A DNA stretch of 64,000 bases. It comes from Gymnopus androsaceus JB14. Its lineage: Eukaryota > Basidiomycota > Agaricomycetes > Agaricales > Omphalotaceae. A program made the translations under genes and the position numbers. Positions 11,501-48,109 of the stretch are shown piece after piece. Position 1 is the first letter of the stretch; the number at the start of each line of letters is the position of its first letter. The stretch is taken from assembly GCA_009733575.1 (NCBI GenBank), contig ML769428.1, positions 248,001 to 312,000 on the forward strand, given 5' to 3'. The notes below the pieces were generated by a model. That model did no database searches. It saw only the letters and a list, made by a program, of their open reading frames with translations, and was not told the DNA's origin.

Positions 11501-13566
11501 ATGATCGTTGGAGAGTCACCACAAGGGCACACAGATTCTGTAAATTCAGTTGCTTTTTCACCAGATGGCAAGAGGATTGTATCTGGATCTAGTGACAAGA
11601 CAGTGTGCATTTGGAATGCAGAGACTGGAATGATCATTGGAGAGCCACTGCAAGGGCACAAATTGAATGTAAATTCAGTTGCCTTTTCATCAGATGGCAA
11701 GAGGATTGTATCTGGATGTGATGACCAGACAGTGTGCATTTGGAATGCAGAGACTGGAATAATCATTGGAGAGCCACTGCAAGGGCACACAGATTGGTAC
11801 ACATGCAGTGTACAATCAGTTGCCTTTTCACCAAATGGCAAGAGGATTATATCTTCTTCGGACAAGACAGTGCGCATTTGGAATGCAGAGACAGGAATGA
11901 TCATTGGAGAGCCACTGCAAGGGCACAGAGACTATGTTAGATCAGTTGCCTTTTCACCAGATGGCAAGAGGATTGTATCTGGATCTGATGACAAGACAGT
12001 GTGCATTTGGAATGCAGAGACAGGAATGATCATTGGAGAGCCACTGCAAGGGCACACAGATTCTGTAAATTCAGTTGCCTTTTCACCAGATGGCAAGAGG
12101 ATTGTATCTGGATCTAGTGACAAGACAGTGCGCATTTGGAATGCAGAGACTGGAATGATCATTGGAGAGCCACTGCAAGGGCACACATTTCGTGTAAAAT
12201 CAGTTGCTTTTTCACCAGATGGAAAGAGAATTGTATCTGGATCTTATGACTGGACAGTGTGCATTTGGAATGCAGAGACAGGAATGATCATTGGAGAGCC
12301 ACTGCAAGGGCACACATCCAATGTAAATTCAGTTGCCTTTTCACCAAATGGCAAGAGGATTGTATCTGGATCTTTGGATGAGACAGTGCGCATTTGGAAT
12401 GCAGAGACTGGAATGATCATTGGAGAGCCACTGCAAGGGTACACATCCAGTGTAAATTCAGTTACCTTTCCATCAGATGGAAAGAGGATTGTATCTGGAT
12501 CTTGGGACCACACAGTGTGTATTGAGACTGTGACTGACAGTGACATGTCTGAAAGTACATTTGCTCTATCATTCTGTCCTTGGCACCCTGACCATCATCT
12601 CATGCATACTGATTCATTATTGCATGGAGTTCATCTTAATTCTGATGGATGGATTTGTAGTACTGATTCCTCTCTGCTGCTGTGGATTCCCCCAGCGTAT
12701 CGCCCAGGTCTTATGTTCCCTAACATTCAAATTTTGATTTCAAGATATAGTCCAATCTCTCTTGATCTCAGTAATTTTGTTTATGGGAAGGATTGGGTCA
12801 AATGCTTCAAGGCCAAGGAAAGTGAAGGTAGTCCTGAGTTGAGAACTGGAGGCAAAGAGGCTGAGGATGAGGAGGATGATTGGACAGGATGGGAAGACTC
12901 AGCCTGTCCAGGGAATGTCACCTCGGCTGATCAGGAAGAGCTAATTTTCGGAAGTACTTACTGCGCCAAAACGCTCCGGCTTGTATCTCCTCCACTGCAT
13001 GATGGTGATACAGACAGTAGCAATATGGGTGAACAATTGGTCAATCATGCCAGAGATGATAGTAACACTCTTTCCTTGAAGGCTGAGAGTCTCTCTCCTC
13101 CATTGGTCAACCTAGCAGATACATCCAACTCTTTTCCAACTGCTTCTCACAAGGCTCATTGCCCTTCCTCATCTATCTCCACTACTTCTGAGCCCATAGA
13201 AGTACCTGTACTGCAAGTTGCCAAGGGTATAGCAATGGGATCAATGGACGAGCCCGAAGGAGTCCGAAGGTTAGGTAGATCAAGGAAAAGGGTGATTTCC
13301 GATGTACTTTCAGAATGTACATGTGGAATTCGTGTTTTGGCGGAGGATAAAGAGGGTGAGCAGGCAGCAGAGTGTACCAAACCTGGTTGTGAAACTGTCT
13401 GGGTGAGTACAGCAGTAATTTCATTAATTTTTGAATACTTACATGCTATTTCTAATGCCAGTTCCATAGACTGTGTGTTGGGCTTGATATGTTTGTGCCC
13501 AAGTGTTGGGTTTGTGAAGCGTGCATGGCATCAGAGAAGCAGGAAGGAAACAAGAAGTGGCCATGA
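8561..13566 (+). CDS. NACHT-WD40 NLR-type protein with C-terminal PHD-like zinc finger
   Basis: Five exons: 8561-8589, 8624-8730, 8783-10353, 10406-13402 and 13462-13566. Introns are 34, 52, 52 and 59 nt; the spliced length is 4809 nt, 1602 aa, with consistent phases and no internal stop. The N terminus has the FPNASDFEMHNPQF-type motif common on basidiomycete NLRs. The NACHT domain has Walker A GEAGTGKST (residues 99-107) and Walker B VVIIIDALDEC (about 197-207). Residues about 640-1277 hold 15 WD40 repeats. An acidic linker leads to a finger at about 1540-1597: C-x-C, C-x5-C, ETVWFH, C, C-x2-C-x2-C. In fungi, NACHT-WD40 proteins are non-self recognition receptors: WD repeats sense ligands and the NACHT oligomerises. 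No classical N-terminal effector domain is visible, so the finger or the short N terminus may serve as output. The first intron (34 nt) is very short; if it is not used, translation starts at 8628. The intron-3 donor and acceptor restore frame exactly between the two long frames. Confidence 0.85.
10613..12530 (+). repeat. Array of 15 near-identical WD40 repeats
   Basis: Each unit is about 126-129 nt (42-43 aa) and nearly identical even at synonymous sites. Constant parts include PDGKRIVSGS, RIWNAETGMIIGEPLQ and GHT. Variation is concentrated in the 2-5 residues after GHT (DSVN, FRVK, EAVY, SCVF, HWVN, LNVN, DWYTCSVQ, DYVR, SNVN) and at the SGSxDxT positions. The DSVN-FRVK pair occurs twice (units 2-3 and 12-13), suggesting block duplication. 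The last unit is degenerate (SWDHTVCIET). Confidence 0.95.
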
Positions 13567-14366
13567 GGCAACATGAGGCTTGGAGGCTGCGTTACCCACA
13601 TAATAGCTTCCATATGTCACATCATGTGGCTGGATGGTCCCCTTCACAGGTCTCCTAAAAATTTTCATCATTGTGTAGAAAAAAAAACCAATCATATTTG
13701 TCTTCTGTGATCTTTGTCTGCTACAAATTTTGTTAGGCAAATACTTTGGAATAAATCATTGGCAGAACAGTAGGATAAATATGTGATTTAGTACCAAGCC
13801 ATGTACACTATATGACTGGGCCAAACATTCAATTCACTTATTTCTTTTTGATGCCTCCCAAATTCATTTGAGTGTATATATTGTATAATTTTCGATTTTA
13901 TGCTTAGTAAACAGAGATACTGAGTACTAGTATCTGTTAAGCCCGTGCAGCCCAGATCAAAGCGGCGGGAAATCGATCGCAAATTGATTGTGGGAATCGA
14001 CCAATGTCGATTGATCGATGATCCGGGTTGGACCCTTGAAGTAACGGGACTTGGTGAAGCTATTAGCAACACCCTTAACGAACTGTAATGTGTCCCAGAG
14101 GGAAGGAGTGGAAGAAGGGCGGAGTGGAGCAAACACACAGCCGCAAGTCGATCGCAAATCGATCGCAACATCAATTGATTGATCGGCGGAGATGTCAGAA
14201 ATAAGACTAGAGAAGATCAGCTAGGCTAAGTTGATTTTCAAACTAAAGTTACAATACATGGTATACTACTTACAGACACAAACCCAGAAAAGAAAGATGC
14301 CCAGAAGCAAAATTTTTTATATTTAAGCCATTTAGAGTGCATTTTAGGATGCAGTTCTTTTTATAC
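13567..14366. other. Intergenic; no gene seen
   Basis: AT-rich sequence downstream of the NLR. The 13960-14190 stretch has clustered CGATCGCAAAT/GATTGATCG words, similar in style to the 22540-22700 region. No coding frame is recognised. The last 5 bp (TATAC) are the left target-site copy of the Copia-1 insertion. Confidence 0.6.
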
Positions 14367-26150: not shown

Positions 26151-26382
26151 TGGTCCTTTGTTCAGTTGGGTATCTCTTCCGTTGTCTGAATTTTAATCCA
26201 GTCAGCCATCTCCTTTTTGTCGCATGTACACTTTTTTCGGCCACCTGAGATATTTATCTTCATTGTTTGAATGTTGTGCATCCGCGGCCTCCTCCTTTTC
26301 GTCGTTTGCTTACTTGGTTCACTCAGCCACCTAATATGTCCATCTTTGTTGTTTGAACCTTATGCTCTTTTGGGCCCTAAAG

Positions 26383-27332
26383 ATCTTCACGAGTCCGGAT
26401 CCCGGTATACCGGGATCCATGCCACAGGTACCGGTGAGTGAAATACCCTGACCTGCGACCCGCCAAAACCCGTGGGAAACAGGTCCGGTATGACCGGGAT
26501 CCGCCACAGGTATACCTGCAGGTACCTGTATGACCTGTCATAGTTTTTTTAACTATAGGTTTCAATACTTATTTGGTACTTACTATGTACTTATTAGTAG
26601 TAAAAATTATACTAGTACCTGTAGCAAATTGGTGTGAATCAGACCCAGTACAATGGCAATGAACTACTTATTCACAACCTTATTAGTAATAGTAAGTATT
26701 TATAGTAATAAAAACTTAATAAACAAAGTGATTTGAGTAGCATACAAGGACCCAGGGCTCTACCACTAAATGAAAATAAGCAATGGATTTTCATTGTACA
26801 GTGGTAAGGAAGAGAACTTTACAGTTTCATATGCATATATCAAGTATTAGACTAAGATAGTGGCAAAACAGTTTCGTCTGGCATCATGTGACTCAGTCCA
26901 AAATATATTGCTAATGGAACAACAAGAAAGCCATTTAAAAAAAAAAGAGCCTTGGGCATGGCTAGCGAGAAGAAGTCTCTAGCCATGCCCAAGGCCGTTT
27001 TTTTGAGAAACGACCTCGTTGTGGCTCTATAAGTTGAGAGGCGGCACGTGATGCTAGACGAAACTGTTCTGCGTATATCTTATTAGTGTTACTACTACTT
27101 ACTTAATAGTGATGTTATAAAATGAAATTAGTACTCTAATACTATATAGTAGTACAAGTACAGATACAGTATAATATTCGGTACCTGCAGGTCACTAAAA
27201 AATTTAAAATCATGACCTATGACCTGCAGGGATCCGTGGGAAACCGGTACCGGGATCCGCGGGTCACAATACCTGCAGGTATTCCCACGGATCTACCTGC
27301 AGGTACCTGTCCCTAACCGGACTCGTGAAGAT
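26383..27332. mobile_element. MITE with ATCTTCACGAGTCCGG inverted ends
   Basis: Left end ATCTTCACGAGTCCGG (26383-26398) and right end CCGGACTCGTGAAGAT (27317-27332) are perfect 16-bp inverted repeats. Subterminal zones repeat GGTACCTG/CAGGTACC and GGATCCCGG words. The centre is AT-rich. No protein is encoded and no clear TSD was found, so the superfamily is open. Confidence 0.75.
26866..27070. mobile_element. Nested foldback element with strong central hairpin
   Basis: About 205 bp that is largely self-complementary: ends AACAGTTTCGTCTGGCATCA (26867-26886) and TGATGCTAGACGAAACTGTT (27049-27068), one mismatch, and a 17-bp perfect stem at 26949-26965/26979-26995 with a 13-nt loop. It sits inside the larger MITE. 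Confidence 0.7.
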
Positions 27333-27500
27333 CATTACTTTTGGCCACCTCCTTTTCATTGTTGTTCACTTAGTTTTATTTGGCCATCTAAGATGTTCAT
27401 TTTTGTCATTTGAAACTTTGTGATCAGCCACCTACTTTCATTTCTTCAGTTCATTCAGCCACCTCTATTTCCGTTGTCTGAACTTTGAGCTTGCCATCTG

Positions 27501-28684
27501 GATGTGAACATTTGAACTTCACATCCAGCTGGTCTCTACTGACAAACTTTCCACTAAAGGTTGCAGAATTCTGTTATTCTTTATTATAGAGCATCAAACA
27601 CCCATTATGTGTTATCTCATGTTCTATCCTCCTTTTCCCCTGTTGTGGAGAGCTGGGAGGTAACTGATGATGTTCTGCAAGCCTCCGTTGGTGGTGGTTT
27701 CAGTTGCCTTCAGATTCTTCCCTCAAGCGAGTGTTGCTCTTGAGAGCCTTGCTTTGTTTTGGTGCTCGGGTCTCATGCTCATGCTTCCTTACCATGGAAG
27801 TTACCGGGCCTGGCTCACCTTGTGTACTGGAATTGGCCAACATTGTCCGGCTCCTGCCTTGGCAGATGTTGATGTCAGTGCGCGCGCCAATTTCATATGC
27901 AAACTTCCTCCTTTCCTGAAGCTATAAACCTGTGTGTATTCACAACTCTTTGGTTGCATACAGGTTCATCAGCTTAGATGTTTATTATACTTATCGTACC
28001 CGTGTCTGTATGCTAATACTTGCCTTATCAAGATTCAGCCATTATAAACCATGTTTTTGCATCCCACTTTGAATTTAGCTGGGAAGTGTCTTTCGCAGTT
28101 GTTTTGGTTAAGTGACTTTGAATTCATACCATCTTCGTTTTTTTGACAGGTGTCAAGCTCCAGAGATCTCTGGAGACCTCCAGCAAAAATACAGGTTTTG
28201 CTGATGCAGACTTGATGCATGATGATTCAGATTTCAAACTTTGGTGATTTTAGAGGAAATTTTGGTGTTGCCAGGATGCACCTGAAAATGCATTGAAAAT
28301 TGAAAATTGGGGGCAATGCACTCTGGTTTCAGCAGGTTCTGCCAATTCAACTAAGTACTACTGCAATCCCAATGCTCTGTTTGCTGCCTCTGAAAGACTC
28401 AGACTCTTGAATTTGTGTTTGGAATCCTATGAGTGTATTGAGCCTTCTTGAATACTTATATCATGATATATCCTGAATCCCAGGAGCTGGGGCATAAGAA
28501 AATTTATTGCCTTGTACTACTGTGTGTTGGGATATATGGGTATGGCATCACTCAAGAAATGGGAAGTCAAACAAATGGTATTCTGTTTGAGCCTTGTAGT
28601 GGTGGTAGGAGGCAAATGGAGGGGGATCAATGTACTACATATAGGTATATATAGTAAAATACTGGTTTCCAATCAGAGGCCATG
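27501..28684. other. No gene recognised; contains a half copy of the 59.9-kb foldback MITE
   Basis: Bases about 28143-28208 match about 60015-60086 almost exactly (CAAGCTCCAGAGATCTCTGG onward to GGTTTTGCTGATG). That is the right half of the foldback MITE. Small frames at 27561-27927 and 28448-28832 are not recognised. The last 5 bp, CCATG, are the left target copy of the hairpin-rich element. Confidence 0.5.
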
Positions 28685-28892
28685 TGTAACGCCCCCGATC
28701 CCTGATTGGCAGGACCTCAGTCTCTACAGGTGGCGGCGCGTTCCTGCGCCTGCCAATAATCTATATTATAATAATTATATATTAGAAACACCTGAGCTTT
28801 ATACCATCACCTTGCGAGTAACCTCTGAATAAATCCAGTAGTACTCGTTTGTGTGATACTAAGGCTCTAGGCTCCACTTAGGAGCCGTTACA
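28685..28892 (+). repeat. Left LTR of the hairpin-array element
   Basis: 208 bp, TGTAACG...CGTTACA. It contains its own inverted repeats (ATTGGCAGG/CCTGCCAAT; GGCTC/GAGCC). It differs from the right copy at about five sites by eye. Confidence 0.9.
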
Positions 28893-28897
28893 CTTTT

Positions 28898-30403
28898 TTG
28901 AGTACCTGTGTACTCTTTAGCGATCCCCGCGAGATGCCGAGTCGTTACGATGACTCAGGTTACGGTGACGTGGTAAATGTCGCCAATAACCATTATTGGA
29001 ATTGCTACGGCAATTCCAGCAACGACGATGTTTTTAACATCATCAACCGTTCAAAAAAGATTCACGGCAGTGAATCTTACAACAGTGACCGTTTTTGCAT
29101 CACTGGTGCCAGCGCATGCGCGGGCACAAATGATTTTAAGCCCGACTCGCGTTGGGCTGGAAATAATAACGTTCAAATTGAACGTTTAAATGTGGCCTCG
29201 ACCACGCTTGAATCACCGATTGGGTCATCCCAATCCGGTGATTTCTTTCAATTATGTGCAACAGCACAGTCCACGAGCCAAAAGGCTCTCCGCGAAATTT
29301 CGAAGTTCACGGAAATGTTAGCAAACGCTAACATAACACGATCCACTCCTCCGGGAGACGTTCCATACCGGAACGTTAGAGATATTGACGGTGATTGGCA
29401 GCCCAGCTACAGCTGGACAGGCACAAAGCCTTGCAGTCATCCCCGCACACCTGGGGGTGAATATTCACCTCCAGGTGACTCTCTGACACCTCTGGTGTTC
29501 TCGTCTCCCACTCCCACTCCTCTTCCTCATCTCCCTTCGTCTCCCACACCTTCCCCTCGTGTCCAAGAAATTGGAAATACCCAATTCCCTGACCAGGGAA
29601 TTGAAAATCGGGCTGGAAACAATGACAATGTTTATAACATTGTCAAACCAAGTAATTTTCATGACTCGGTGCCCCAGGATGCGTCCCGCATCATACCCCA
29701 GCTTGACTCTAGTCAAGCTGAATGTCCATACGTTCATTCCGAACGTTTTGGCGCAGCTCCCGTTGCGCCTTATTCCCAAATTGGATTAAAAACCCAATTT
29801 GGAAAGACACCGAGTCATTTTCACGACTTGGTGCCCCAGAATGTGTCCTGCATTGCAGAAAACACACCCCAGCTTGACTCCAGTCGAGCTGACACTCAAT
29901 ACGTTCATGCTGAACGTTCTGGCGTGACTCCGGTTACGCCTAATTCCCAAATTGGATTAAAGCCTCAATTTGGGAATTCTTCTCGATCATGTACTTTGGC
30001 ACATGAAACGAGCCTTCATGATGTGAGGAACATCATGAAGAACTCGTCCCAGCTCGACGGGAGTCGAGCTCAACGTCCTCACGTTCCCCCGGAACGTTCT
30101 GGCGTGGTTCTAGTCCCGCCAAATTCCCGGATTGGCTTAAAAACCCAATTCAGGAATTCTTCTCGATCATGTGGTTCTGCACACGATTCGAGCCCCCATG
30201 ATGTACCCTGCATCATTAAAAGCTCACCTCAGCTCGATCCTAGTCGAGCTGATCGTCGATACGTTCAAATTGAACGTTCTGGTGCAGCTCCGGCTGCACC
30301 AAATTCCCAAATTGGGTCAAATACCCAATTTGGGAAGTCACCAAGTCGTGAAAACGATTCGGTGACCCACAATGCTCCTCGCATTGTGCAAAACCAAGTC
30401 TAG
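28898..30403 (+). CDS. Repetitive 501-codon frame in the hairpin-array element
   Basis: Unrecognised protein; the start could also be the ATG at 28934. A helical-looking module FFQLCATAQSTSQKALREIS (about residue 115) and NVRD...HPR and QEIGNTQFPDQG motifs reappear in the downstream frame (FLQQCAEAQAASQRALREL; NVRD...HPR; QEIGDSQFPDQG), so the two frames contain a duplicated module. The C-terminal half is a tandem repeat of about 57-60 residues (QLDSSRAD, YVHxERSG, PNSQIGLKxQFG). At DNA level nearly every part is one arm of a hairpin, so the frame could be protein-coding, structural or both. Composition gives no hint of an enzyme. A gag-like role is conceivable for a non-autonomous LTR element but is only a guess. 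Confidence 0.45.
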   Translation: MSTCVLFSDPREMPSRYDDSGYGDVVNVANNHYWNCYGNSSNDDVFNIINRSKKIHGSESYNSDRFCITGASACAGTNDFKPDSRWAGNNNVQIERLNVASTTLESPIGSSQSGDFFQLCATAQSTSQKALREISKFTEMLANANITRSTPPGDVPYRNVRDIDGDWQPSYSWTGTKPCSHPRTPGGEYSPPGDSLTPLVFSSPTPTPLPHLPSSPTPSPRVQEIGNTQFPDQGIENRAGNNDNVYNIVKPSNFHDSVPQDASRIIPQLDSSQAECPYVHSERFGAAPVAPYSQIGLKTQFGKTPSHFHDLVPQNVSCIAENTPQLDSSRADTQYVHAERSGVTPVTPNSQIGLKPQFGNSSRSCTLAHETSLHDVRNIMKNSSQLDGSRAQRPHVPPERSGVVLVPPNSRIGLKTQFRNSSRSCGSAHDSSPHDVPCIIKSSPQLDPSRADRRYVQIERSGAAPAAPNSQIGSNTQFGKSPSRENDSVTHNAPRIVQNQV

Positions 30404-31960
30404 CTCGACTATAGCCGAGCTGGACCCTTCTACATTCATACTGAACGCATAGGTGTGGCTTCAGCTACACCCATATCACCGTTTGGGTTAACCCAAACCA
30501 ATATTTTTCTACAGCAATGTGCAGAAGCACAAGCTGCGAGCCAACGGGCTCTCCGTGAACTTCGACAGTTCACGGACACGTTAGCAAAAGCTAACATGCC
30601 AGGATTTAATCCTGGTAGTTGCAATGAACCGGATGTAAAATCTACATCCACGGCGACTGTAACATCTCGTCATACAATGAGATTGGGTATGTATTCATAC
30701 CCGGAACCTGGCGTTTTGTTCAAACAAAACACATCCCCTGAACGGATTCATGCTAGAATCAACTCAGGGGGACAATCTTCTTGCGGAGATGATCCACACG
30801 AGAACGTCAGAGATACTGATGAAGACCATTGGGCTGACATTGCTCAGAGAGGCCTAAGGCCTTCCTGTCATCCCCGCTCATCTCTGACACTTCCCGTGTC
30901 CTCATCTCCTCCTCCCACCCTGGTTCCTCCCCCTTGCGTCGATCCGCATCCCAAATCAATTCAATTCAAGAGGTTCACCCCTCGGAAGGTCATGCCTTCC
31001 AAATTGATGGTGGTACATGGTACCACTGTAAATTCACGTTTTGGCACAGCCAGGCCCTCGAAAAGGGACTGGATGGACAGAGTCGCTGTCCAGCGACTCT
31101 GTGACCGAGATCTCCAAGAAATTGGAGATTCACAATTCCCTGACCAAGGAGTTCTTTTTAATATTGATGGGTACCCTGCTGATAGACTCCTGGACAGTTG
31201 GAAAGACCCACCATCCAGAAATTGTGGGGGGCAAATCCGTCATAAACTACGACGGATTTCTGAAACTCACAGAGCAAGCTCGAAACATGTACAATGTTTG
31301 CAAGCAAGCTTCTTTTCTCTTCAAGAGGGGGAGGGCCAGTGTAGAAATACACTAGCTCACTCTACATCTCAAGTACATGGGATTAAAAATCCCTCAAAAC
31401 ACAATTTGCCAGAGGATTGGGTACGGTACATCCAGATGTACCCCAACCAATGTCCTACTGGCATAAAGTATGATCACAATGTCTTACCCGTAATGTACAG
31501 GGATGGTTACTAGTAAGTAACCATGCCCCAGTTATAGCAGCGGGGACTCCCAAGGTGAAGCAGCATTGCTTCACCTTACAAACAGTGGAGTCATTCACAA
31601 CTCCGGGACTTTATGCATCCATTACTGGATATGATGAGACAAATATTGTCTCAAATATTTCAACATCACCATATACAGGTGACATTGATAATGCTACATT
31701 GAATGATGTAGCCTTGTTTTATGCCTCCCAAGGCATTACCATTGAAATGGGAAAAGACATAACTGTCTTTGCCTTCAGTGGTTGACTATGTTCCATACAA
31801 TGGACCCTAGTCTTGGATGCGAGTTATGTGCAACACATGACCGTACTCTTCACTCCTGTTTCTGAATACATGGCATGCTGCCATGCATTCGAAATCCCAG
31901 GATATATTCACAAAATGCTATTGTGAATATGTTCCCAACTTCAACTATCAAGTTGAAGTT
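28940..31960 (+). repeat. Tandem hairpin array (more than 50 short inverted repeats)
   Basis: Examples with perfect stems (arms by position): 28998-29005/29010-29017 (8 bp); 29057-29065/29070-29078 (9); 29315-29322/29327-29334 (8); 29582-29590/29595-29603 (9); 29624-29632/29636-29644 (9); 29699-29708/29711-29720 (10); 29942-29954/29966-29978 (13); 30014-30024/30030-30040 (11); 30281-30288/30293-30300 (8); 30304-30316/30324-30336 (13); 30481-30498 (18-bp palindrome); 30553-30560/30568-30575 (8); 31078-31087/31092-31101 (10); 31233-31241/31251-31259 (9); 31503-31511/31516-31524 (9); 31552-31561/31568-31577 (10); 31904-31913/31921-31930 (10); 31937-31946/31951-31960 (10). Between about 29.70 and 30.41 kb they form a higher-order repeat of about 171-180 nt. 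Confidence 0.92.
30455..31513 (+). CDS. Second 352-codon frame in the hairpin-array element
   Basis: Starts MASATPISPFGLTQTNIFLQ and carries the same helical and QEIGDSQFPDQG modules as the upstream frame, 52 nt downstream of its stop. The 31041-31355 alternative frame looks at least as protein-like (LLIDSWTVGK, YDGFLKLTEQARNMYN), so a frameshift may have occurred near 31050-31150. Unrecognised. Confidence 0.4.
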   Translation: MASATPISPFGLTQTNIFLQQCAEAQAASQRALRELRQFTDTLAKANMPGFNPGSCNEPDVKSTSTATVTSRHTMRLGMYSYPEPGVLFKQNTSPERIHARINSGGQSSCGDDPHENVRDTDEDHWADIAQRGLRPSCHPRSSLTLPVSSSPPPTLVPPPCVDPHPKSIQFKRFTPRKVMPSKLMVVHGTTVNSRFGTARPSKRDWMDRVAVQRLCDRDLQEIGDSQFPDQGVLFNIDGYPADRLLDSWKDPPSRNCGGQIRHKLRRISETHRASSKHVQCLQASFFSLQEGEGQCRNTLAHSTSQVHGIKNPSKHNLPEDWVRYIQMYPNQCPTGIKYDHNVLPVMYRDGY

Positions 31961-32058
31961 CTCACAAATATGCTCCAGCTGGGTTGACACGCTATCAAAC
32001 CAGTTGGTGGCCCCTTTCCTTTTTGATTAAACTGTAGGCTCAATCTGGCTGGGGAGGG

Positions 32059-32266
32059 TGTAACGCCCCCAATCCCTGATTGGCAGGACCTCAGTCTCTA
32101 CAGGTGGCGGCGCGTTCCCACGCCTGCCAATAATCTATATTATAATAATTATATATTAGAAACAGCTGAGCTTTATACCATCACCTTGCGAGTAACCTCT
32201 GAATAAATCCAGTAGTACTCGTTTGCGTGATACTAAGGCTCTAGGCTCCACTTAGGAGCCGTTACA
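32059..32266 (+). repeat. Right LTR of the hairpin-array element
   Basis: 208 bp, same ends as the left copy, preceded by the purine-rich GGGGAGGG and followed by the CCATG target duplicate. Confidence 0.9.
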
Positions 32267-33274
32267 CCATGGCAAGCAATGACACTTGCTGTTTTGAGCC
32301 AAAGTTCAGTCTATATCATGCATTACAGGTGTGAAGACCAATTCATTATGTTATATGGAAAAAAAATTGCATTATGCATTCAAGAAATTTCAAGGTTTAC
32401 CTTGGTTTACCTACAATGACACCAATGAGGACTGGTGTATCTGGCATACCAAAATTGCATTACTGTCTTAAAAATTTCATGTTCAGAAGTGTTTGTGACA
32501 TGTTACAATCATTGAAGCAGATCATGTTCCATGGGGGCATTAAGTGCTAAGGATTTTAGCTTCAAAACAGCACAATAGATTGTATTTTTGTACTTGGAGC
32601 AGACATGTATGATGTGTGCTTGATCTCACTTGCTCACAGTCTCAAACTCAAATTTTGGTTTCAGGCATACCATATATAAGCTATCAAAGTAAAATAACAC
32701 ATGGAATAATTTTTCGAAGGGTTATTTTATAAGTGATTTTGCTGTTGAAGGCAACATGAAGGTATTAGAAGCCTCAACATTTAGGTGCATAAAATGATAT
32801 ATTCTTAAATTTATAGCTGGGAGAACCGTAGAGCTTCAGAATCGCTTCCTAACCCACTCAGCCGCATCCAATTCCATTGAGAATCGAGCGAGTTATTGTG
32901 CTTTACATTTGGAGCAACTTTGTGCGCTTAGTTGACGGGCGGCAATAATGTTATCCTATACTTAAAATGAAGACGGGGCGCTTGATTTCAAAGTCCGCTT
33001 TATTTACATAATCATTGGTCAGCTTTTCGAGCGCCATACTTAGCGGCTACGTTTCCCGGCGGAGCCGGAGTTTTACAGTGCCGCGCAGCGGCCAGCAAAG
33101 CCTATCATAGTGCGTACATGCGTGTTGTGCATGAGGCAGAATCATTTTGTGCATATGTTATGCATGAGGCGGAATCATGATTGAATTTGTCCATGATTAG
33201 ACAATTTTTAGCAACTCTCCCTCCTTCTGCCATCTTCTTCATCTGTAGCAGCACTGTAGCACTATACTCTACAC
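32267..33274. other. Intergenic; no gene seen
   Basis: Begins with the right CCATG target copy. AT-rich to 32800, then a more GC-rich stretch (32830-33110) with no recognised RNA or protein. Confidence 0.45.
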
Positions 33275-33340
33275 ATGTATGTTCCATATCTCATTTGCTT
33301 TCCTATATTTTTCCTACTATTTATATATAAACTTTCTATT

Positions 33341-33622
33341 AAGGGACTCCACCACCCAAATACTCCCCAACGGCATCGTAATGCCGAGCGTCGAGAGAGA
33401 GAACGAGATTCACGTGTTTTAGGTAGCCCTGAAAATCGCCATGTCCCTCAACAGCACAACTATGGTCCTCCAATACCTTTTCAGCTTAACATACCTCAAG
33501 GGTTTGTCCCTCCTCCTCATTCACAAGATGATCCTTTCCAGATTGTCCATCATAATGGTCAAGAACTCCATTTATCTCAAGGTATTGCAGCTCAGATCAT
33601 TCCAGTCTACCAGGAAAAGTAA
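33341..33622 (+). pseudogene. Left part of a hypothetical gene next to the giant palindrome
   Basis: An open frame rich in Arg, Glu, Pro and His (NAERRERERDSRVLGS, then FVPPPHSQDDPFQIVHHNGQ) runs to a stop at 33620-33622, beside a GT donor (GTAACT, from 33619). The palindrome begins about 6 bp later. The right part may be at 37339-37560. Unrecognised. The insertion probably lies in or at the edge of an intron. Confidence 0.35.
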
Positions 33623-33769
33623 CTAGTTAGATAGTCCAAAGTGTAACAATCCAGTAACTAATATGATCAAAATCCACAGGAAATCCAGGGCCCTGGAATC
33701 CAGGGGCCCCACCTGGAATCCATACGCCCTGCCTGGAATCCATACAGCTAGGACCTCTGGCACCCTTTG

Positions 33770-34380
33770 GATATGGATTCCATGCATGTTGCATGGAATC
33801 CATACACTAGTAAAAATAGTAGTGTATGGATTCCATGCATGTCGCATGGAATCCATGCACTAGTAAAAACAGTGGTGTATGGATTCCATGCACTAGTAAA
33901 AATAGTAGTGTATGGATTCCATGCATGTTGCATGGAATCCATGCACTAGTAAAAATAGTAGTGTGTGGATTCCATGCATGTTGCATGGAATCCATGCACT
34001 GGTAAAAATAGTAGTGTATGGATTCCATGCATATAGTGTGTATGGATCCATGCATGTGCATATAGTAAAAATAGTAGTGTATGGATTCCATGCATGTCGC
34101 ATGGAATCCATGCACTAGTAAAAATAGTAGTGTATGGATTCCATGCATGTATGTATGGATTCATGCATGTTGCATGGATTCCATGCATGTATGTCATAGT
34201 TGGATTCCATGCATGTCGCATGGAATCCATGCACTAGTAAAAATAGTAGTGTATGGATTCCATGCACTAGTAAATATAGTTAGTCTATGGAATCCATGCA
34301 CATCGCATGGATTCCATACACTGGTAAATATAGTAGCGTATGGATTCCATCCATACACTACTGTATTTACTAGTGCCACC
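33770..34380. repeat. Hairpin-forming minisatellite, left arm
   Basis: About a dozen units of roughly 50-57 bp built from ATGGATTCCATGCA, a short spacer, TGCATGGAATCCAT and ACTAGTAAAAATAGTAGTGT. Each unit is itself a 14-bp inverted repeat. Units vary in length and in the spacer. Confidence 0.9.
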
Positions 34381-34860
34381 TGATATTACCCCTTGATGGT
34401 AACATTACATACAATTGATAGGATTATCTCTGCTATGTAAAGATAATGTTAAGAGTAATAGGGTAGATATAGCAAGATACCTGTAAAGTACTAGTAAATT
34501 TACTAATGAGTTCACTGAGGGTAAGACTTGGTGCGTGGGTTCGAACCCCAGTAGTGATAGATAATTTATATAGGTACGTGAAGATGCCTTCAGATCCCGG
34601 AAATCATGACCAACTCCCTGCCGAAGTCAATCAATGTCACTACCAATCATATGCATATGCCTCCCGCTCATTGATCCCTCTCTCCCCGCCACCTGATATT
34701 ACCCAATGATGGTATCTTTGCATAGCATTGATAGGATTGTCTTTGCTATGTAAAGATAGCGTTAAGGGTAATAGGACAGATTTAGCGAAACATTGTAAAG
34801 TACTAGTAATATACTAATGAGTTTACTGAGGCTAAGACTTGGGTGTGCGGGTTCAAAATC
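34380..34860 (+). repeat. Two tandem copies of a unit with a B-box-like motif
   Basis: Related blocks start with CACCTGATATTACC at about 34377 and 34690. Each runs through TACTAATGAGTT and TAAGACTTGG to GGGTTCGAACCCC (34536-34548) or its degraded version GGGTTCAAAATCC. The motif resembles a Pol III B box, so a SINE fragment is possible, but no convincing A box was found. The right arm lacks this duplication. Confidence 0.4.
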
Positions 34861-36479
34861 CAAAGGCGTGTGCAGGCGCCTTCGGATATCATGACTGACT
34901 TACCGTCACTCATGCCATCAGACAGTTCATCACCATCCCCCTCATGTCACTGGCATCATATGTACATCCCGCTTTCCCGCTCACTGTCCCCGCCTCCCTG
35001 CCCATTATGACAAATGGGATATGTAGTATCCCTACTTGTAAAATTAGATAAATAGGGACATAGTAAATAATAACGACCATTGAGTACTTGAACAGTCCAC
35101 ATGACCTGACTGCAAGGTCATAGGATGCACGGTTACATGCTCAAAAAAAAATTGAGTGCCGCCATTATAAAGCACGGAAGCATGCTAACATACCTTATCT
35201 ATGTCTGCTCCGTGAAGGAAAACACTTCATTACCATTTGTCGCCTCTAAAATGGACGTTCAAAGACGTCCGGAAATGCGGTCCGTGGGCGCTTAGCTCGT
35301 ACTCCGTGCTCGAAACGACGAGCTTGAGCAGTCAGATGATTGTGGATATGTCCCGGACCTATCGGGAACACATCTGGACAGTATATTTCACATTTTGAAT
35401 CCAGTAGATCATCAATTAAGCTTTTGATCCCATTGCTATCCAAGGATATGACATCGACTCACCAAGCTCATTGCATGAAGCAATGGGCTCAAGGGAGAAG
35501 GTGAAATAGGTGGCACCTCAGACTTGAGCAACATGTTATGGACATGTATCGCTTTCATATATGGTAAACTTACACTCATAGAAATAATTGCGGGCTACAT
35601 ACAACATTAAAGTAGGTTTTGTCAATGGATGTAGTATCCAAACTGCACCGAAACTTGTTACCATGCCTTCAAGTATTCAGACAAGCACAGTTCTGTAGTA
35701 TATAAGTCAACTACACTACTAGATCATGGTAATAGCATTATAAGTTGCAAGATGTCCTAGTTCCTCCTTGAGTTCACTGTTATCTGCAATGAACTCGAGT
35801 TTTTAGTGTAACCAGTACACAAAATGACAAATATCCTATTTTTTAACCGCTGAATATCCAAATTAATAGCTGTTGGAATGACGATAGACCTTATAGATGT
35901 GTTCCCGATGGGTCCGGGAAATATCCACAATCATCTGACTGCTCAAGCTCGTCGTTTCGAGCACGGAGTACGAGCTAAGCGCCTACGGACCGCATTTCCG
36001 GACGTCTTCGAACGTCCATTTTAGAGGGTACAAATGGTAATGAAGTGTTTTCCTTCACGGAGCAGACATAGATAAGGTATGTTAGCTTGCTTCCATGCTT
36101 TATAATGGCGGCGTTCAATTTTTTTTTATTAGCATGTAACCGTGCATCCTATGACCTTGCAGTCAGGTCATGTGGACTGTTCAAGTACTCAATGGTCGTT
36201 ATTATTTACTACGTCTCTATTTATCTAATTTTACAAGTAGGGATACTACATATCCCATTGTCATAATGGGCGGGGAGGCGGGGACAGTGAGTGGGAAAGC
36301 GGGATGTACATATGATGCCAGTGACGTGAGAGGGATGGTGATGTACTGTCTGATGGCATGAGTGACGGTAAGTCAGTCATGATATCCGAAGGCGCCTGCA
36401 TGCGCCTTAGGATTTCAAACCCGCAATCAATGTATGTAATGTTACCATCAAGGGGTAATATCAGGTGGCACTAGTAAAT

Positions 36480-37160
36480 ATAGTAGTGTATGGATGGAAT
36501 CCATATGCTACTATATTTACCAGTGTATGGAATCCATGCAATGTGCATGGATTCCATACACTACTATTTCAACTAGTGCATGGATTCCATGCAACATGCA
36601 TGGAATCCATACGCTACTATTTTTACTAGTGCATGGATTCCATGCAACATGCATGGATTCCATACACTACTATTTACTATGCTACATCAGTGCATGGAAT
36701 CCATGCGACATGCATGGAATCCATACACTACTATTTTTACTAGTGCATGGAATCCATATGCTACAATTTTTACTAGTGCATGGATTCCATGTGACATGCA
36801 TGGAATCCATACACTACTATTTTGACTAGTGCATGGATTCCATGCGACATGCATGGAATCCATACACTACTATTTTTACTAGTGCATGGAATCCATGCGA
36901 CATGCATGGAATCCATACGCTACTATTTTTACTAGTGCATGGATTCCATGCAACATGCATGGAATCCATACACTACTATTTTTACTAGTGCATGGAATCC
37001 ATGCAACATGCATGGATTCCATACACTACTATTTTTACTAGTGCATGGATTCCATGCGACATGCATGGAATCCATACGCTACTATTTTTACCAGTGCATG
37101 GATTCCATGCGACATGCTAGTGCATGGATTCCATGCAACATGCATGGAATCCATATCCAA
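36480..37160. repeat. Hairpin-forming minisatellite, right arm
   Basis: Inverted counterpart of the left array: about 12 units of TGCATGGATTCCATGC, spacer, GCATGGAATCCATA and CACTACTATTTTTACTAG. Long frames through both arrays (repeated HAWNPYTTIFTSAW) are products of the repeat and not genes. Confidence 0.9.
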
Positions 37161-37299
37161 AGGGTGCCAGAGGTCCCAGCCGTATTCCAGGCAGGGCGTA
37201 TGGATTCCAGGCGGGGCCCCTGGATTCCAGGGCCTGGATTTCCTGTGAATTTTGATCATATTAGTTACTGGATTGTTACACTTTGGACTATCTAAGAAG

Positions 37300-37720
37300 A
37301 TATAAAATGGGGCAGCCTGAAGTGCTCAGATATGGGGTTTGCCTCCTATGCCTGAGCCACCTGCAAGATGTGGTACTTCCCGTGGACATGGACATGGTAA
37401 TATTGTACATGTGGTAAGTTTATTACATTGCACTGTACTCTTGAGCTTTGTTCTCATTGATTTTTTTTCTTTTCAAATTCAATCTTTAGAATGCCCCAGC
37501 TGGACCTTCAAATTTGCAAAACCGAGTTTGTTGTCCTGTTTAATTTGTGAGGTTTGTGATACTGACTGTTGTACAGTTTGCTCATTTGCCTGCAAATCTT
37601 CAAGCACAACTGGCATCAGTTCCACCCCATCCCACTCATCGGGCCCAGGGTTGACCAAGAACTCAAGTACATGGTCAAAGTCAAGTATTTTTTCTAAATA
37701 ACCAAAGTTGTTTAAATCTT
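37300..37720 (+). pseudogene. Right part of the hypothetical gene next to the palindrome
   Basis: MPPMPEPPARCGTSRGHGHG at 37339 ends at a GTAAGT donor (about 37415). An acceptor before AATGCCCC (about 37490) continues NAPAGPSNLQNRVCCPV to a stop. Composition resembles the left part, but the family is unknown. Confidence 0.3.
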
Positions 37721-37739
37721 ATTTTGTTGCTACTCATCT

Positions 37740-38094
37740 GGAAAAGTGCCTAAAGCCCTGAGATATCTGGATATCTCTGGAGGAGCCCAGGGAGATGCCT
37801 AATTCCTAGGCTTTTTCAGGTAGTATTGAAACGTCCTGGGCACCCTGGGTGGCTCACGGTGCCCAGGGAAATGCCCATATCCTATGGACTCCCAAGATTC
37901 CCTGAGGAAAATTTAAAGTCCCCCAGGATATGCCACTTTTTTTGAAAAGCCTTGAGTATTCCTGGGTACATTCCAGGGCATTCTAGAGCATCCCTGAGTA
38001 GCCCAAACATATCCCTGGGTATCCCTGAGGCATCCTGGGACATCCCTGGGATGTGCCTGGTAAAGCCCTGTGCAGCCCTGGGTCCCTGAGTTTC
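37740..38094. repeat. CCCTGGG-rich low-complexity region
   Basis: Dense, irregular CCCTGGG/CCCAGGG and CATCCCTGGG words with no fixed unit. No gene. Confidence 0.6.
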
Positions 38095-38411
38095 CCCAGG
38101 ATATGGGAAGCGATTGGCTTAGGAATCTTTTGTCGGAATCTTTGGTCCAATTACTCATTTGCGATCCCTATTCCAACGTGGTCCCAGACAAACTAGTCTC
38201 GCCATTTTCGTTGGCGGAAGGTATGATCGTTTTCCACGCTAGGACAAACAGCATCCGATATCCGTATCACTTCATCCACTACGTCATCGAGGAAGTAAAA
38301 TTCGTCTCACATCCTGCCCTACCGAAAACATGACGGCAGACATCTTCACCAAAGCCTTACCTTCGATGAAAGCCAAACACTTCGCAGCATCCATGGGATT
38401 AGCAAAGGTTT
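38095..38411 (+). pseudogene. Copia RNase H C-terminal fragment
   Basis: Nucleotide-level relative of 53536-53830: AGGAAGCGATTTGGCTTAGG-type start, the TCACTTCATCC segment and ACAGCATCCATGGGATTAGC-type end, with small indels that break the frame. It ends just before the LTR at 38418. Confidence 0.75.
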
Positions 38412-43912: not shown

Positions 43913-46900
43913 TTATGGGTTCCCACTAATTCCACGTTCCCATTCCCCGAATTCTAACCTGTGTTTCGTTGGGTGGTCTCGGTGAAATTTATCTACACTT
44001 TGTTTTGCGTGTTGCACATTTGCAATTCCTTCCCAAGTGTCTCCTTCTGGTCCGTATGTCTCCCATCTCACTAGATACTTCATTTTTCCTCTGACCCTTT
44101 TATTATCCAGTATTTTTTCCACCACGTATTCGTCAACCCCTTCAATTTCAATTGGTGGTTGTGGGGCTGGTTTTCGTGCCGGATAATATTCCTTTGGTTG
44201 CTCTGTAAGTAGGTCCACATGAAATACATTGTGGACTCCGCTCATGGACTTCGGTAGTTCAAGTCGATATGCATGATTTGATATCTTTTTGATGATCTTG
44301 AATGGTCCTAGCTTTTTGTAGTCCAACTTTTTCGCTGGACGTTTTGTTTTGATATTCTTTGCTTTTAACCAAACCTTGGTTCCGACACTCCAATCAGCGC
44401 TCTCTTCTCGTCGGTGTCTGTTTATCGCCGTTGCATACCCTTTGTTAGCTTGGCTGATTTCGTTTTTTAGAAAATTGTTGATATCTCGCAAGTCTTGCAC
44501 TTTTAGGTGGGCTTGGTGACTTGGAACATTTTTTAAGGACAATGTCAACTTTGGGTGAAATCCCTTATTGGCGAAGAATGGTGAAATGCCCGTTGTATCG
44601 CTGGGTGTATTGTTGTATACGAACTCAGCTATGGGTAGCCATTCTTCCCAATCGTCCTGGTCATAATTGACGAATATCCGTAAGTATTGTTCCAATGTCT
44701 GGTTTGTTCTTTCGGTTTGCCCATCCGTCTCGGGATGGTAAGCCGTCGACAACCGTTGTTGTATTCCCAACATTGAACATATTGATGTCCAAAATTTGGA
44801 TGTGAATAGAGTTCCTCGATCAGACACTATGTCTGAGGGTAAACCGTGTTTCGAGAATACGTGTCGTAGGAATAATTTCGCTAATTCGGGCGCATCGTCG
44901 GTTGTATTGCAGGGTATGAATATTGACTGCTTGGTGAGTCTATCCACTACTACCATTATAGCGTCGAAGTTATTCGATTTTGGCAGTTCTACGATATGGT
45001 CCACTGAGATAGCACTCCAGGGTCTATCGCCAATTGGTAGTGGTTTTAAAAATCCGAGTTTCTTTTGGCGCTCCGCCTTTCCCCTATGGCAGTCATGGCA
45101 TGACCGCACGTATCGGCGGACATCTTTGTGTAGTCCTGGCCAAAAGTACGTTTGCTGAACCAATTTTTGTGTCTTTCTGATTCCCGGATGTCCTCGTAGC
45201 TTGTGATCATGGTGAGTCTGTAAAATTCGGAGTCGGAGGGATTCAATTTTGGGCACATATATCCTCCCTTCCCTAAGGAGCAGTCCATCTTCAACTTTAA
45301 ATGCTCCTGGTTCTTTGGACCTTGCAAGTTTTTCCATAGTTCGCCAGTATTCATCCTTCTCCGAGTTTCTGATTTTGGAAATGTCCAATTCGTCATTTAG
45401 CACTAAATTGGCCATCAATTGTTCTGGACGCAGTAGAATTTTGGAATTCATCTCGTTTGCTTTTTCGAGTTCCTGTTTTTTCGGATATACATCCGGCCTT
45501 CTTGTCAGCGCATCTGGTTTAGCGCCTAATCTCCCAGGACGGTAGTTTATGTGAAAGTTAAATCCGGAAAGATATTCCGACCATCTTGCTTGTCGACGGC
45601 TAAGTGCTTTAGTTGTAGTAAACCACTGTAGATTGTTGTGGTCCGTGAAGACCTCAATTCCGTATTTCGCGCCTTCCAGGTACGCTCGCCATTGTTTGAA
45701 GGATTCCACGATTGCTAACATTTCTTTGTCATAGATGTCGTAGTTAAGTTCTGCTGCCACCATGCTTCTTGCAAAGAATGCTATGGGGTGGATTTCCCCC
45801 ATTTCAGGATCATACTGCGATATGATCGAAGCAATGGCAAAGTCCGATGCGTCCGATTCCACTATTATTGGTAGTTCTGGATTAAAATGTCGAAGTATTG
45901 GGGCTTCCGCAAACGCTTTCTTCAGAAGTTCAAAGACTTCCGTACATTTATTCGTCCAGACCCAAGGTGCATTTTTTGTTAGAAGGTTCGTTAATGGCTT
46001 TACGATTCCCGAGAAATTGTCAATGAACCTTCTATAGAAATTGGCAAAGCCTAGGAAGGATTGTAATTCTTTAATGGATCTCGGTGTTGGCCACTGTTGT
46101 ATTACTTCCACCTTCTTTGGATCCATGGATATCCCCTCCGGCGATATTATCAGTCCCAGATATTCTGTCTTCAAAGTGTGGAATTCACACTTCTCGGGTT
46201 TTATGTGTAGGTCATGGTTTTCTAACCTTTTTAAGACCTGTCTAACATGTTCCTTGTGTTCCTTCTCGTCTTTTGAATAGATGAGTATGTCGTCTAAATA
46301 GACGACCACAAATGTGTCAACCATATCATGAAATACATCGTTCATGAAATATTGGAAATTCGAGGGTGCATTTGTCAAGCCAAAGGGCATGACAAGGTAT
46401 TCGTACGAGCCATAACGAGTGCGAAACGCTGTTTTCCACTCGTGGCCCTTGGCTATTCGCACGTTGTTATAGCCTGCCCGAAGGTCCAACTTGGTGAATA
46501 TTTTTGCTTTCCGCAATTGGTCGATGAGGTTACCAATTAGCGGTAACGGATATCTATTTTTGATTGTGAGCTTGTTTAAGGCTCGATAATCTACGCAGAG
46601 ACGTAAGCTTCCATCTTTCTTTTTAGCAAAGAGGACTGGTGCCCCTATGGGTGAGGATGAGGCTCGTATGAATCCCTTGTCAAGCATATCGTCAAGGTAT
46701 TCTTTTAACGCTTTCAACTCCAGTTCTGACATATTATACAGTTTCCCAAAGGGTGGAAGTTTGTCTCCCTCTGTATCCACTCGGAGATCATAGGAGCGAT
46801 GTTGGGGAAGAGTTTTCGCTTCCGCTGCCGCAAATGTTTTGGCAAAGTCGTGATAATCCCTCGGGACATGTTTATCTAACATGTTTTGGTCTGCCATAGT

Positions 46901-48070
46901 TGAATGACTAGTTGTAGATGCCAAGGTGAATCTCTTTTCCATTTCCGGTGGTTGTGGAGCTATTTCTTGCTCTGAAGTTTCAGCTTTTAGGGTTTGTTCC
47001 CTTTCCAATTCTTCCCATTCGTGTATTCCTCCTTTCGGAGTCAGATGGAGTGTGAATGTTTCACAACCTGCTTCCGCCAGTCGTGCAAATGCTGCGGCTC
47101 CTACAAAGCCAATTCGTGGGCCATTCGTTGTATTTGCCCAGCGTAAATTACGCTTTGACATATTCACTTGTTTGACATGTGCCTGGCGTACATTATCCGG
47201 TCCGAGTTTAGCGCCCTGCTTCTTGTCTTTTGATCTTGCTTTCCTCATATTCTTTTTCTTCTTTCTTCTCTTCTCGAGGTAGTATTGCTCCAACTCGTCA
47301 ATGTGCATCAATATGGGATCTTCGGGACGTAACGCTGGCCATCTGTTCTGTTTTTCCTCCAGAACTTCCTCTATCGACACCTTCCATTCCTTTCGCCTGT
47401 CCCGTCTTTGTGCCTCCAACCTTCGCGTCTTATCCAACAGATACTCCTCTACTTCGTCTTCATGGAGCAATAATGGATCTTCTATCTCGAGTGTTGATTT
47501 AGGGATGGATTCTTCCGGGACATTTTCAATACTTGGGTTGCTACTAGTATGGTTTCTTGGGACGCAAATACTTGGAAATATTTTATCAGCGCATGGTATG
47601 TCCCTTACACGTGCCGCTGCCAACACTACGTAGTCCTGAAGGTTAATTTTCAACTTCTTCCAGTCGATTCTGGGATTGTAGTCACGTAGCCAGGGTAAAC
47701 CGAGGACAATTGGTGTTTTCTCGTGAAGTTTGGTGATCAGGAAATTCCTTGTGTGCGTAGTTCCATCTTCGAATGTTATTTCCAAGACCGACTTATGGTG
47801 AATCAACCCTCCAGATGTATATTGCCCGTCTATCAATTTGAGTGGGACCGGTCGTTCTAGTTTGACAATGGATTCTTTGAATTTCTTTACGAGTTCACTG
47901 TCTATGAAATCGCGGGACGCCCCTGAATCAATGAGCGCCAAATGGGTATGTGTGTTTTTGTTTTGAATTTTTACTGGTACGACGAAGGACTGTTCCGAGC
48001 GCGACGACATTGTTGCTAGTTCGAGTGTCGCGCTTCGGAGATGTTGAGGGAGTTTTGGTTGTTGGACCAT
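43913..48070 (-). CDS. Gypsy-1 pol polyprotein (PR-RT-RNaseH-IN-chromodomain)
   Basis: 1385 codons from the first Met. Retropepsin ALIDSGASRDFID (D48). RT motifs LFAKKKDGSLRLCVDYRALN, FTKLDLRAGYNNVRI, MPFGLTNAPSNFQ and VVYLDDILIYS (about residue 593). RNase H FTDHNNLQWF. Integrase HHCC finger (HDHKLRGHPGIRK; SCHDCHRGKAE, about 955-1005). DDE core with SVDHIVELPKS, VSDRGTLFTSKFW and HPETDGQTERTNQTLEQYL. Chromodomain YVVEKILDNKRVRGKMKYLV plus TWEG (about 1310-1360), which in such elements targets integration to marked chromatin. All key residues are present. The frame is -1 relative to gag and is open upstream of the Met through the frameshift site, so the Met is probably not the true start. 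Confidence 0.95.
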   Translation of the reverse strand: MVQQPKLPQHLRSATLELATMSSRSEQSFVVPVKIQNKNTHTHLALIDSGASRDFIDSELVKKFKESIVKLERPVPLKLIDGQYTSGGLIHHKSVLEITFEDGTTHTRNFLITKLHEKTPIVLGLPWLRDYNPRIDWKKLKINLQDYVVLAAARVRDIPCADKIFPSICVPRNHTSSNPSIENVPEESIPKSTLEIEDPLLLHEDEVEEYLLDKTRRLEAQRRDRRKEWKVSIEEVLEEKQNRWPALRPEDPILMHIDELEQYYLEKRRKKKKNMRKARSKDKKQGAKLGPDNVRQAHVKQVNMSKRNLRWANTTNGPRIGFVGAAAFARLAEAGCETFTLHLTPKGGIHEWEELEREQTLKAETSEQEIAPQPPEMEKRFTLASTTSHSTMADQNMLDKHVPRDYHDFAKTFAAAEAKTLPQHRSYDLRVDTEGDKLPPFGKLYNMSELELKALKEYLDDMLDKGFIRASSSPIGAPVLFAKKKDGSLRLCVDYRALNKLTIKNRYPLPLIGNLIDQLRKAKIFTKLDLRAGYNNVRIAKGHEWKTAFRTRYGSYEYLVMPFGLTNAPSNFQYFMNDVFHDMVDTFVVVYLDDILIYSKDEKEHKEHVRQVLKRLENHDLHIKPEKCEFHTLKTEYLGLIISPEGISMDPKKVEVIQQWPTPRSIKELQSFLGFANFYRRFIDNFSGIVKPLTNLLTKNAPWVWTNKCTEVFELLKKAFAEAPILRHFNPELPIIVESDASDFAIASIISQYDPEMGEIHPIAFFARSMVAAELNYDIYDKEMLAIVESFKQWRAYLEGAKYGIEVFTDHNNLQWFTTTKALSRRQARWSEYLSGFNFHINYRPGRLGAKPDALTRRPDVYPKKQELEKANEMNSKILLRPEQLMANLVLNDELDISKIRNSEKDEYWRTMEKLARSKEPGAFKVEDGLLLREGRIYVPKIESLRLRILQTHHDHKLRGHPGIRKTQKLVQQTYFWPGLHKDVRRYVRSCHDCHRGKAERQKKLGFLKPLPIGDRPWSAISVDHIVELPKSNNFDAIMVVVDRLTKQSIFIPCNTTDDAPELAKLFLRHVFSKHGLPSDIVSDRGTLFTSKFWTSICSMLGIQQRLSTAYHPETDGQTERTNQTLEQYLRIFVNYDQDDWEEWLPIAEFVYNNTPSDTTGISPFFANKGFHPKLTLSLKNVPSHQAHLKVQDLRDINNFLKNEISQANKGYATAINRHRREESADWSVGTKVWLKAKNIKTKRPAKKLDYKKLGPFKIIKKISNHAYRLELPKSMSGVHNVFHVDLLTEQPKEYYPARKPAPQPPIEIEGVDEYVVEKILDNKRVRGKMKYLVRWETYGPEGDTWEGIANVQHAKQSVDKFHRDHPTKHRLEFGEWERGISGNP

Positions 48071-48109
48071 TAGAGTTCCCTCTCCCCTTTGGTCCTTTAT
48101 GTGTTTCCC
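48064..48109 (-). promoter_or_regulatory. Programmed -1 frameshift signal between gag and pol
   Basis: On the minus strand the last gag codons contain G-GGA-AAC (48103-48109), a canonical X-XXY-YYZ slippery heptamer, 4 nt before the gag stop TAA (48097-48099). Slipping back one base enters the pol frame, which is closed just upstream (TAA) and open downstream. About 7 nt after the heptamer, GGACCA (about 48090-48095) can pair with TGGTCC (about 48064-48069), with an inner AGAG/CTCT stem, giving the expected stimulatory stem-loop. Confidence 0.72.

Follow-up and report, generated by a model that had tools for sequence, protein, structure and literature searches.

Can a single strand of DNA hold a long reading frame and, within it, an almost unbroken chain of hairpins, and what would keep both in place? 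The question is raised by an element flanked by long terminal repeats (LTRs) in the fungus Gymnopus androsaceus JB14, which occupies positions 28685-32266 of a 64,000-nt stretch (hereafter the window; contig ML769428.1, C46:248001-312000, from a genome of 83.3 Mb in 934 contigs) and is bordered on both sides by the target-site duplication CCATG. Its interior contains more than 50 short palindromes, set in a nearly unbroken chain inside a long reading frame. The original prediction, made from the letters of this stretch, had described the palindromes; it missed the many relatives of the element and the long plus-strand frame, and to call the interior non-coding would be wrong. A non-autonomous LTR retrotransposon in which two layers of information overlapped fits the data. 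Judging from sequence, we regard it as close to an even call that frame and palindromes were both constrained while the family was active, with pairing kept symmetric between the strands, template switching and selection both shaping the hairpins, and a single-stranded stage at which they would be used.

To gauge how unusual the array is, perfect stems whose loops do not exceed 12 nt were counted between 28894 and 32057 and compared with 100 dinucleotide shuffles of the same sequence. There are 57 stems with arms of at least 6 bp (shuffle mean 8.5, maximum 14), 29 with arms of at least 8 bp (mean 0.5, maximum 3) and 11 with arms of at least 10 bp (mean 0.04, maximum 1). Shuffled sequence thus does not approach a similar density, and the dense end-to-end packing described by the original prediction holds. 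Much the same is seen when protein and codon usage are both preserved: 60 such shuffles of 28934-30400 give a mean of 1.5 stems and a maximum of 5 against the 16 observed, and two other copies of the element contain 28 stems against 2.0 (L026) and 21 against 1.6 (L028). That the palindromes are there by chance, or as a by-product of the encoded protein, is in our judgement a negligible prospect, refuted by both kinds of shuffle and by the recurrence of pairing among copies.

Here and below, copies are represented by 26 interiors, the window's own and 25 from 24 of 40 loci, with truncated, nested or rearranged interiors excluded; four of these were added back to count stem density in 30 copies. 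Across these 30, stems with arms of at least 8 bp number 3.7-10.4 per kb (mean 7.8), and the longest perfect arm measures 11-14 bp in 28. Elsewhere in the window we find 0.6 per kb in a gypsy element and 0.3 in the stretch from 9.0 to 18.4 kb; other 3,164-nt tiles contain one to four stems, apart from two with 7 and 10, both of which hold other palindromic repeats. Outside a central array of repeat units (Table 1), conservation of pairing was followed in three pieces, A, B and C, present in 22, 9 and 24 of the 26 copies (a single match to 85% or more of the piece, at over 80% identity). Here 60% or more of the copies examined share the pairing of 48-55% of nucleotides, and the hairpins mostly differ from one another in their letters. 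A search of Rfam with 28400-38400 (E up to 1) returned 58 matches; none reached the curated cut-off, and only two lie in the element.

The second layer is the reading frame. The longest open frame of a copy spans 129-888 codons, exceeds 256 codons in 21 of the 26 interiors and, in the best of them, runs unbroken for 888. (One listing has frames as long as 1127 aa, but these include read-through.) In 21 of the 26, an open frame of 141 codons or more starts immediately after the 5' LTR, and in 12 of those it is the longest of the copy. Shuffled sequences yield maxima of 201-256 codons against 416-888 observed in the eight copies tested, all of them picked for their long frames. In five copies, 2.6 kb of the coding frame contains 0-8 stops, and the two remaining plus-strand frames contain 25-35 and 60-67. 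At the 5' end, five stop cells occur in 22 copies by 267 codons; at the 3' end, 24 copies have 38, of which 33 are TGA, as might be expected if CGA codons decayed from C to T. Over 31000-32050, the window's own copy lacks 7-8 nt in comparison with many others of the family.

When used as a query against a protein database, the predicted 888-aa product has two matches. One, BT96DRAFT_1004193 (P0001; 979 aa, G. androsaceus JB14), is presumably annotated in this very assembly, with its own locus on contig C362 at 99-100% identity. The other (P0002) comes from JGI, on a contig of 3,768 nt, and is the single database relative besides the genome's own annotation. The C-terminal part of P0001 matched only P0001 itself, and searches of viral contigs and of the PDB gave no match.

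How freely have the two layers changed? The central units offer internal replicates. Their spacings of 171, 180 and 180 nt bear out the higher-order repeat of about 171-180 nt that had been proposed. From nhmmer matches (plus strand, scores over 95 and 150 or more model positions) we kept 97 units from the 26 copies, 93 of them distinct; 91 fall into four types, with two singletons excluded. RNAalifold recovered almost no structure from the alignment of all 93, though single units fold well, and pairs were therefore taken from single-unit folds, in which hairpin H1 pairs in 77-91 of the 93, H2 in 59-75 and H3 in 45-84, while H5 adopts two registers. The four types differ at 105 of 576 stem columns (0.18), 71 of 150 loop columns (0.47) and 27 of 90 spacer columns. 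By codon position, divergence is 0.14/0.15/0.26 at positions 1/2/3 within stems and 0.38/0.35/0.50 outside them. Coding constraint is suggested by this third-position excess together with the openness of the frame.

Hairpins at the same place in successive units were said to keep pairing while their letters change, and so they do. Comparing types pair by pair (comparisons among four types, and so not independent), 69 of 288 base pairs have changed, 32 of which are Watson-Crick with both arms altered; the remainder are one-arm changes to GU (18) or AC (4) and 15 other cases. On a tree of units, true pairs have 17 both-arm events, against a mean of 5.4 and a maximum of 13 in 500 permutations, and 2-9 with slid partners; 13 of the 17 stay paired. 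Likewise, both-arm paired cells in the three orthologous pieces (23, 7 and 36) exceed the maxima of within-helix shuffles (14, 5 and 21). In five divergent copies, 36 of 44 both-arm changes are Watson-Crick and non-CpG changes are rarer in stems (119 of 2711) than at other sites (169 of 2223; odds ratio 0.56, p 2e-6). Selection on the palindromes would account for the slow divergence of stems.

At what level would such selection act? A folded sense RNA under selection should tolerate GU pairs and not AC. Over the whole element, with GU forbidden during folding, majority mismatches within helices comprise 14 GU and 15 AC; one-arm changes in divergent copies comprise 98 GU and 108 AC; and non-CpG variants common to at least three copies comprise 13 of each. 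An earlier strand count was rejected and redone in this GU-forbidden form, as pairs picked with GU allowed cannot reveal AC. Both strands fold well, with a mean z score of -5.3 for the sense strand (20 folding windows) and -4.5 for the antisense strand, compared with -2.4 outside the element (31 folding windows, two palindromic repeats included); the other strongly folding stretches of the window belong to those two different repeats, at about 26.4-27.6 and 33.6-37.3 kb. Given this parity and the folding of both strands, pairing looks strand-symmetric overall.

These counts bear on the idea that selection acted on folded sense RNA, whether as packaging or dimerisation signals or as protection from nucleases or RNA interference, much as in the genome-wide structure of some RNA viruses. 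The lower z score of the sense strand relative to sequence outside the element would suit it, as would stem conservation, the both-arm changes, the preponderance of GU over AC between unit types and perfect arms that stop at 11-14 bp in all but two of 30 copies. Set against this are the parity of GU and AC in the three counts given above and an antisense strand that also folds well. We consider the idea unlikely. The RNA roles raised by the original prediction (packaging, dimerisation, small RNAs) are accordingly not indicated over a cause at the DNA level or in template switching, and arms of 11-14 bp are short for a Dicer substrate, which tells against a source of small RNAs in particular. 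Strand symmetry would be expected of DNA-level sites, be they cruciforms or protein-binding palindromes; yet, with letters that mostly differ outside the units, more than 50 palindromes would need a reader of shape only, and we think such sites very unlikely.

A different kind of explanation is suggested by inversions. Homologous hairpins are sometimes inverted between units or copies, as are the H5 hairpins of units 1 and 4. Inverted loops include the pairs TCCT/AGGA, GAGGA/TCCTC and CAGTTTCACA/TGTGAAAATG, and of the 19 loops that proved strongly changed among 74 variants compared, four match the reverse complement with one mismatch or none. On a larger scale, one copy carries an in-place inversion of about 125 bp (L053:778-903), with short inverted homology at its edges by eye, and another an in-place inversion of 269 bp (L015:2107-2375). 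Homogenised arms and inverted spacers are what template switching produces, according to passages of PMC8604942 and PMC8794818, and template switching is discussed, in the part of PMC6649704 concerned, as a possible cause of palindromes in the mitochondrial coding genes of Nematomorpha.

Repeated switching of this kind might by itself both make and keep the palindromes, without their serving any use. The strand symmetry of mismatches, the inversions of loops and of whole segments in L053 and L015, and published precedent such as the nematomorph genes (PMC6649704, in part) all agree with such a purely mutational origin. We nevertheless hold it to be rather unlikely. Unbiased copying from arm to arm should, we reason, not cut the divergence of stems, yet this is about half that of loops and spacers; a general copying error fits poorly with 0.3-0.6 stems per kb in two other stretches of the window against a mean of 7.8 in the family; inversions are rare in orthologous pieces; and no directional pair asymmetry is seen. 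Template switching would account for the inversions and for part of the paired changes, selection for the slow divergence of stems, and neither process alone explains both.

We therefore return to the combined explanation put forward at the outset. Imagine that reading frame and hairpins were both under constraint during the activity of the family. The palindromes would be kept as Watson-Crick inverted repeats, equally on either strand; switching from arm to arm during copying would now and then homogenise arms and invert loops; and selection would remove versions with broken stems. The likeliest use, and here we conjecture, may be to keep genomic RNA or cDNA compact and paired with itself while it is single-stranded during mobilisation. 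A more specific version, about which we are doubtful, has the interior written twice in one strand, as a long, weakly constrained frame and as end-to-end palindromes selected at a single-stranded DNA or otherwise strand-neutral stage, with whole hairpins flipped and renewed by switching while the element grows no longer. A mobile element of such a dual-written type was not found in the literature searched, which covered few subscription journals and included PMC9674265, seen in part.

Mobilisation would presumably have relied on the enzymes of another element. No family reached the Pfam cut-off in five proteins of the element family (a divergent Gag could escape Pfam), so that reverse transcriptase, integrase and protease were all without a Pfam match in these frames, and a six-frame genome search placed no reverse transcriptase in the element among the best 150 of 285 candidates scored. 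On this point the original prediction, which had recognised no retroelement enzyme, is supported. Three of the 150 scored matches (on C423, C56 and C66) have an LTR or leader of the family no more than 10 kb away.

A number of observations weigh against the combined explanation. None of the 150 reverse transcriptase matches scored out of 285 candidates lies between a pair of family LTRs, so a partner element was not found among them. Working from four sequences, AlphaFold2 gave no confident fold for the predicted protein (mean pLDDT 28.8); the two longest helices, 101-131 and 540-569, are of low confidence and fall in the two copies of an old internal duplication. That duplication has no third-position excess (30/102, 22/103 and 25/104 at the three positions), close copies have no codon-position bias, and hence, even though third positions are the most divergent between unit types, the frame seems to have stayed open while its amino-acid sequence changed rather freely. 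Hairpins have no phase preference outside the repeat units. (Such a preference was first seen, and was rejected when it vanished once the units were left out.) Between unit types, one-arm changes favour GU over AC and so lean to RNA. Loop inversions are nearly absent from orthologous pieces (two borderline cells), and the pair asymmetry of intrastrand switching is absent (GC 238, CG 215, TA 211, AT 200). Close copies, too, have a stem deficit (odds ratio 0.67, p 0.001), making the contrast between old and young changes modest.

Finally, of 60 alternative Watson-Crick states in orthologous pieces and unit types, 48 are at CpG-type pairs, and recent covariation can for this reason mostly be put down to methylated CpG decaying, as it ordinarily does, on both arms. 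The original prediction had taken paired changes as a sign of selection on structure, with covariation among copies as the check. Paired changes between units, with stems diverging less than loops, uphold part of that claim; among orthologous copies both-arm changes do exceed those of within-helix shuffles, but the predominance of CpG-type variants calls for a CpG correction.

The anatomy of the element is that of an LTR retrotransposon, with direct LTRs ending in TG...CA, a short target duplication, multiple dispersed copies and, within GGCTGGGGAGGG, the purine run GGGGAGGG, which has few variants among the copies compared. The LTRs and the duplication are as the original prediction described them (Table 1); the two LTRs are 98% alike over 210 nt, with five mismatches, against 3-14 in nine other copies in which both LTRs were delimited by script. 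No TGG-type tRNA primer site was seen in the leader behind the 5' LTR, and with regard to self-priming, leader stretches with a complement in the LTR do not exceed 6 nt.

Table 1. Positions, in window coordinates, of the parts of the element.
Feature	Position	Strand	Remarks
Target-site duplication, left	28680..28684		CCATG, read from sequence; repeated at 32267-32271
5' LTR	28685..28892	+	208 bp, TGTAACG...CGTTACA
Conserved leader	28893..28933	+	with 6-bp hairpin GAGTACctgtGTACTC at 28900-28915
Reading frame, first part	28934..30403	+	from ATG, 489 codons, then TAG
End-to-end hairpin array	28939..32003		predicted from sequence
Old in-frame duplication, first copy	29169..29350	+	71%, duplicate of 30432-30613
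Four 171-180-nt repeat units	29697..30400	+	starts 29697, 29868, 30048, 30228; each with hairpins H1-H6
Hairpin H5, unit 1	29808..29833	+	92% complementary to 30339-30364
Hairpin H5, unit 4	30339..30364	+	inverted relative to unit 1
Reading frame, continuation	30404..31513	+	same frame as at 28934, 369 codons to stop
Old in-frame duplication, second copy	30432..30613	+	partner of 29169-29350
Polypurine-tract-like GGCTGGGGAGGG	32047..32058	+	adjoins 3' LTR; nearly constant among copies listed
3' LTR	32059..32266	+	208 bp
Target-site duplication, right	32267..32271		CCATG, read from sequence

The family is large. The LTR has at least 40 scored matches in the genome (88-100%), and queries from the 5' and 3' interior each have at least 40 scored candidates. 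A motif from the LTR core (up to two mismatches) occurs 69 times genome-wide and a leader motif (up to three mismatches) 47 times, with no match to either reversed control. Copies vary in the number of 171-180-nt units and in deletions, and two have in-place inversions. The leader motif also occurs at C101:168123, C153:48565, C12:87123, C119:137137 and other loci without a listed interior match, which are possibly sister families or the autonomous partner. At one locus (L010, C9:230600-239400), two similar copies lie in the same orientation with starts about 4.4 kb apart.

How does the element compare with known systems? Large retrotransposon derivatives (LARDs) are said to go back to Kalendar et al. 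(2004), and TR-GAG elements reportedly to Chaparro et al. (2015). As portrayed in passages of PMC7215508, LARDs are, like this element, LTR-flanked, multicopy, without recognisable gag or pol and presumably mobilised in trans, with conserved RNA structure reported. Unlike it, they are described there as lacking a protein, whereas here a predicted frame is open for up to 888 codons, and those passages make no mention of an end-to-end array of palindromes. The element has the conserved structured interior of a LARD, as predicted palindromes, and, with its predicted frame, does not lack coding capacity. It resembles TR-GAG elements, on the account in part of PMC10552921, in being a non-autonomous LTR element with coding capacity and no pol; it differs in that Pfam detected no GAG domain, although a Gag could be too divergent for Pfam. 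Perfect inverted repeats within reading frames are shared with Nematomorpha, where, according to the relevant part of PMC6649704, they can be as long as 284 bp, come and go between species and lie preferentially in phase 1. Those of the element are short, end to end, nuclear and at the same places in copies, and outside the units they prefer no phase. Lastly, the element shares the homogenisation of arms and the inversion of spacers with template-switch mutations, which the passages concerned (PMC8794818, PMC8604942) describe for RNA genes (rRNA, microRNA) and yeast coding genes and not as what an entire element is built from.

Other features of the window are separate from the element. At 33600-37300 lies a foldback-like element, a large inverted repeat that has GGATTCCATGCATG-type palindromes in long arrays at its ends; this palindromic repeat (33.7-37.2 kb) takes 56 of the 58 weak Rfam matches. 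A palindromic repeat of about 0.95 kb at 26380-27335 carries the inverted ends gatcttcacgagtccgg / ccggactcgtgaagatc, with a strong hairpin inside it at about 26.95-27.0 kb. On the minus strand, 43913-51990 resembles a Ty3/gypsy element and has long frames of 1385 and 1297 aa; a repeat finder returned no direct repeats of at least 100 nt around it (42-54 kb). At 9070-13576, a frame resembling a NACHT-type gene precedes one of 1036 aa that consists of highly alike, putatively WD40-like repeats.

What would the combined explanation mean, if true? Paired changes alone are no proof of RNA structure, for CpG decay and template switching can mimic them, and the count of GU against AC helps to tell these apart. 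The family would provide a natural case in which the upkeep of hairpins by selection can be separated from their upkeep by template switching, its copies and internal repeats serving as replicates, and would be a test bed for the reading of a long frame through a continuous chain of hairpins. It would also extend the non-autonomous LTR elements to a dual-coded form.

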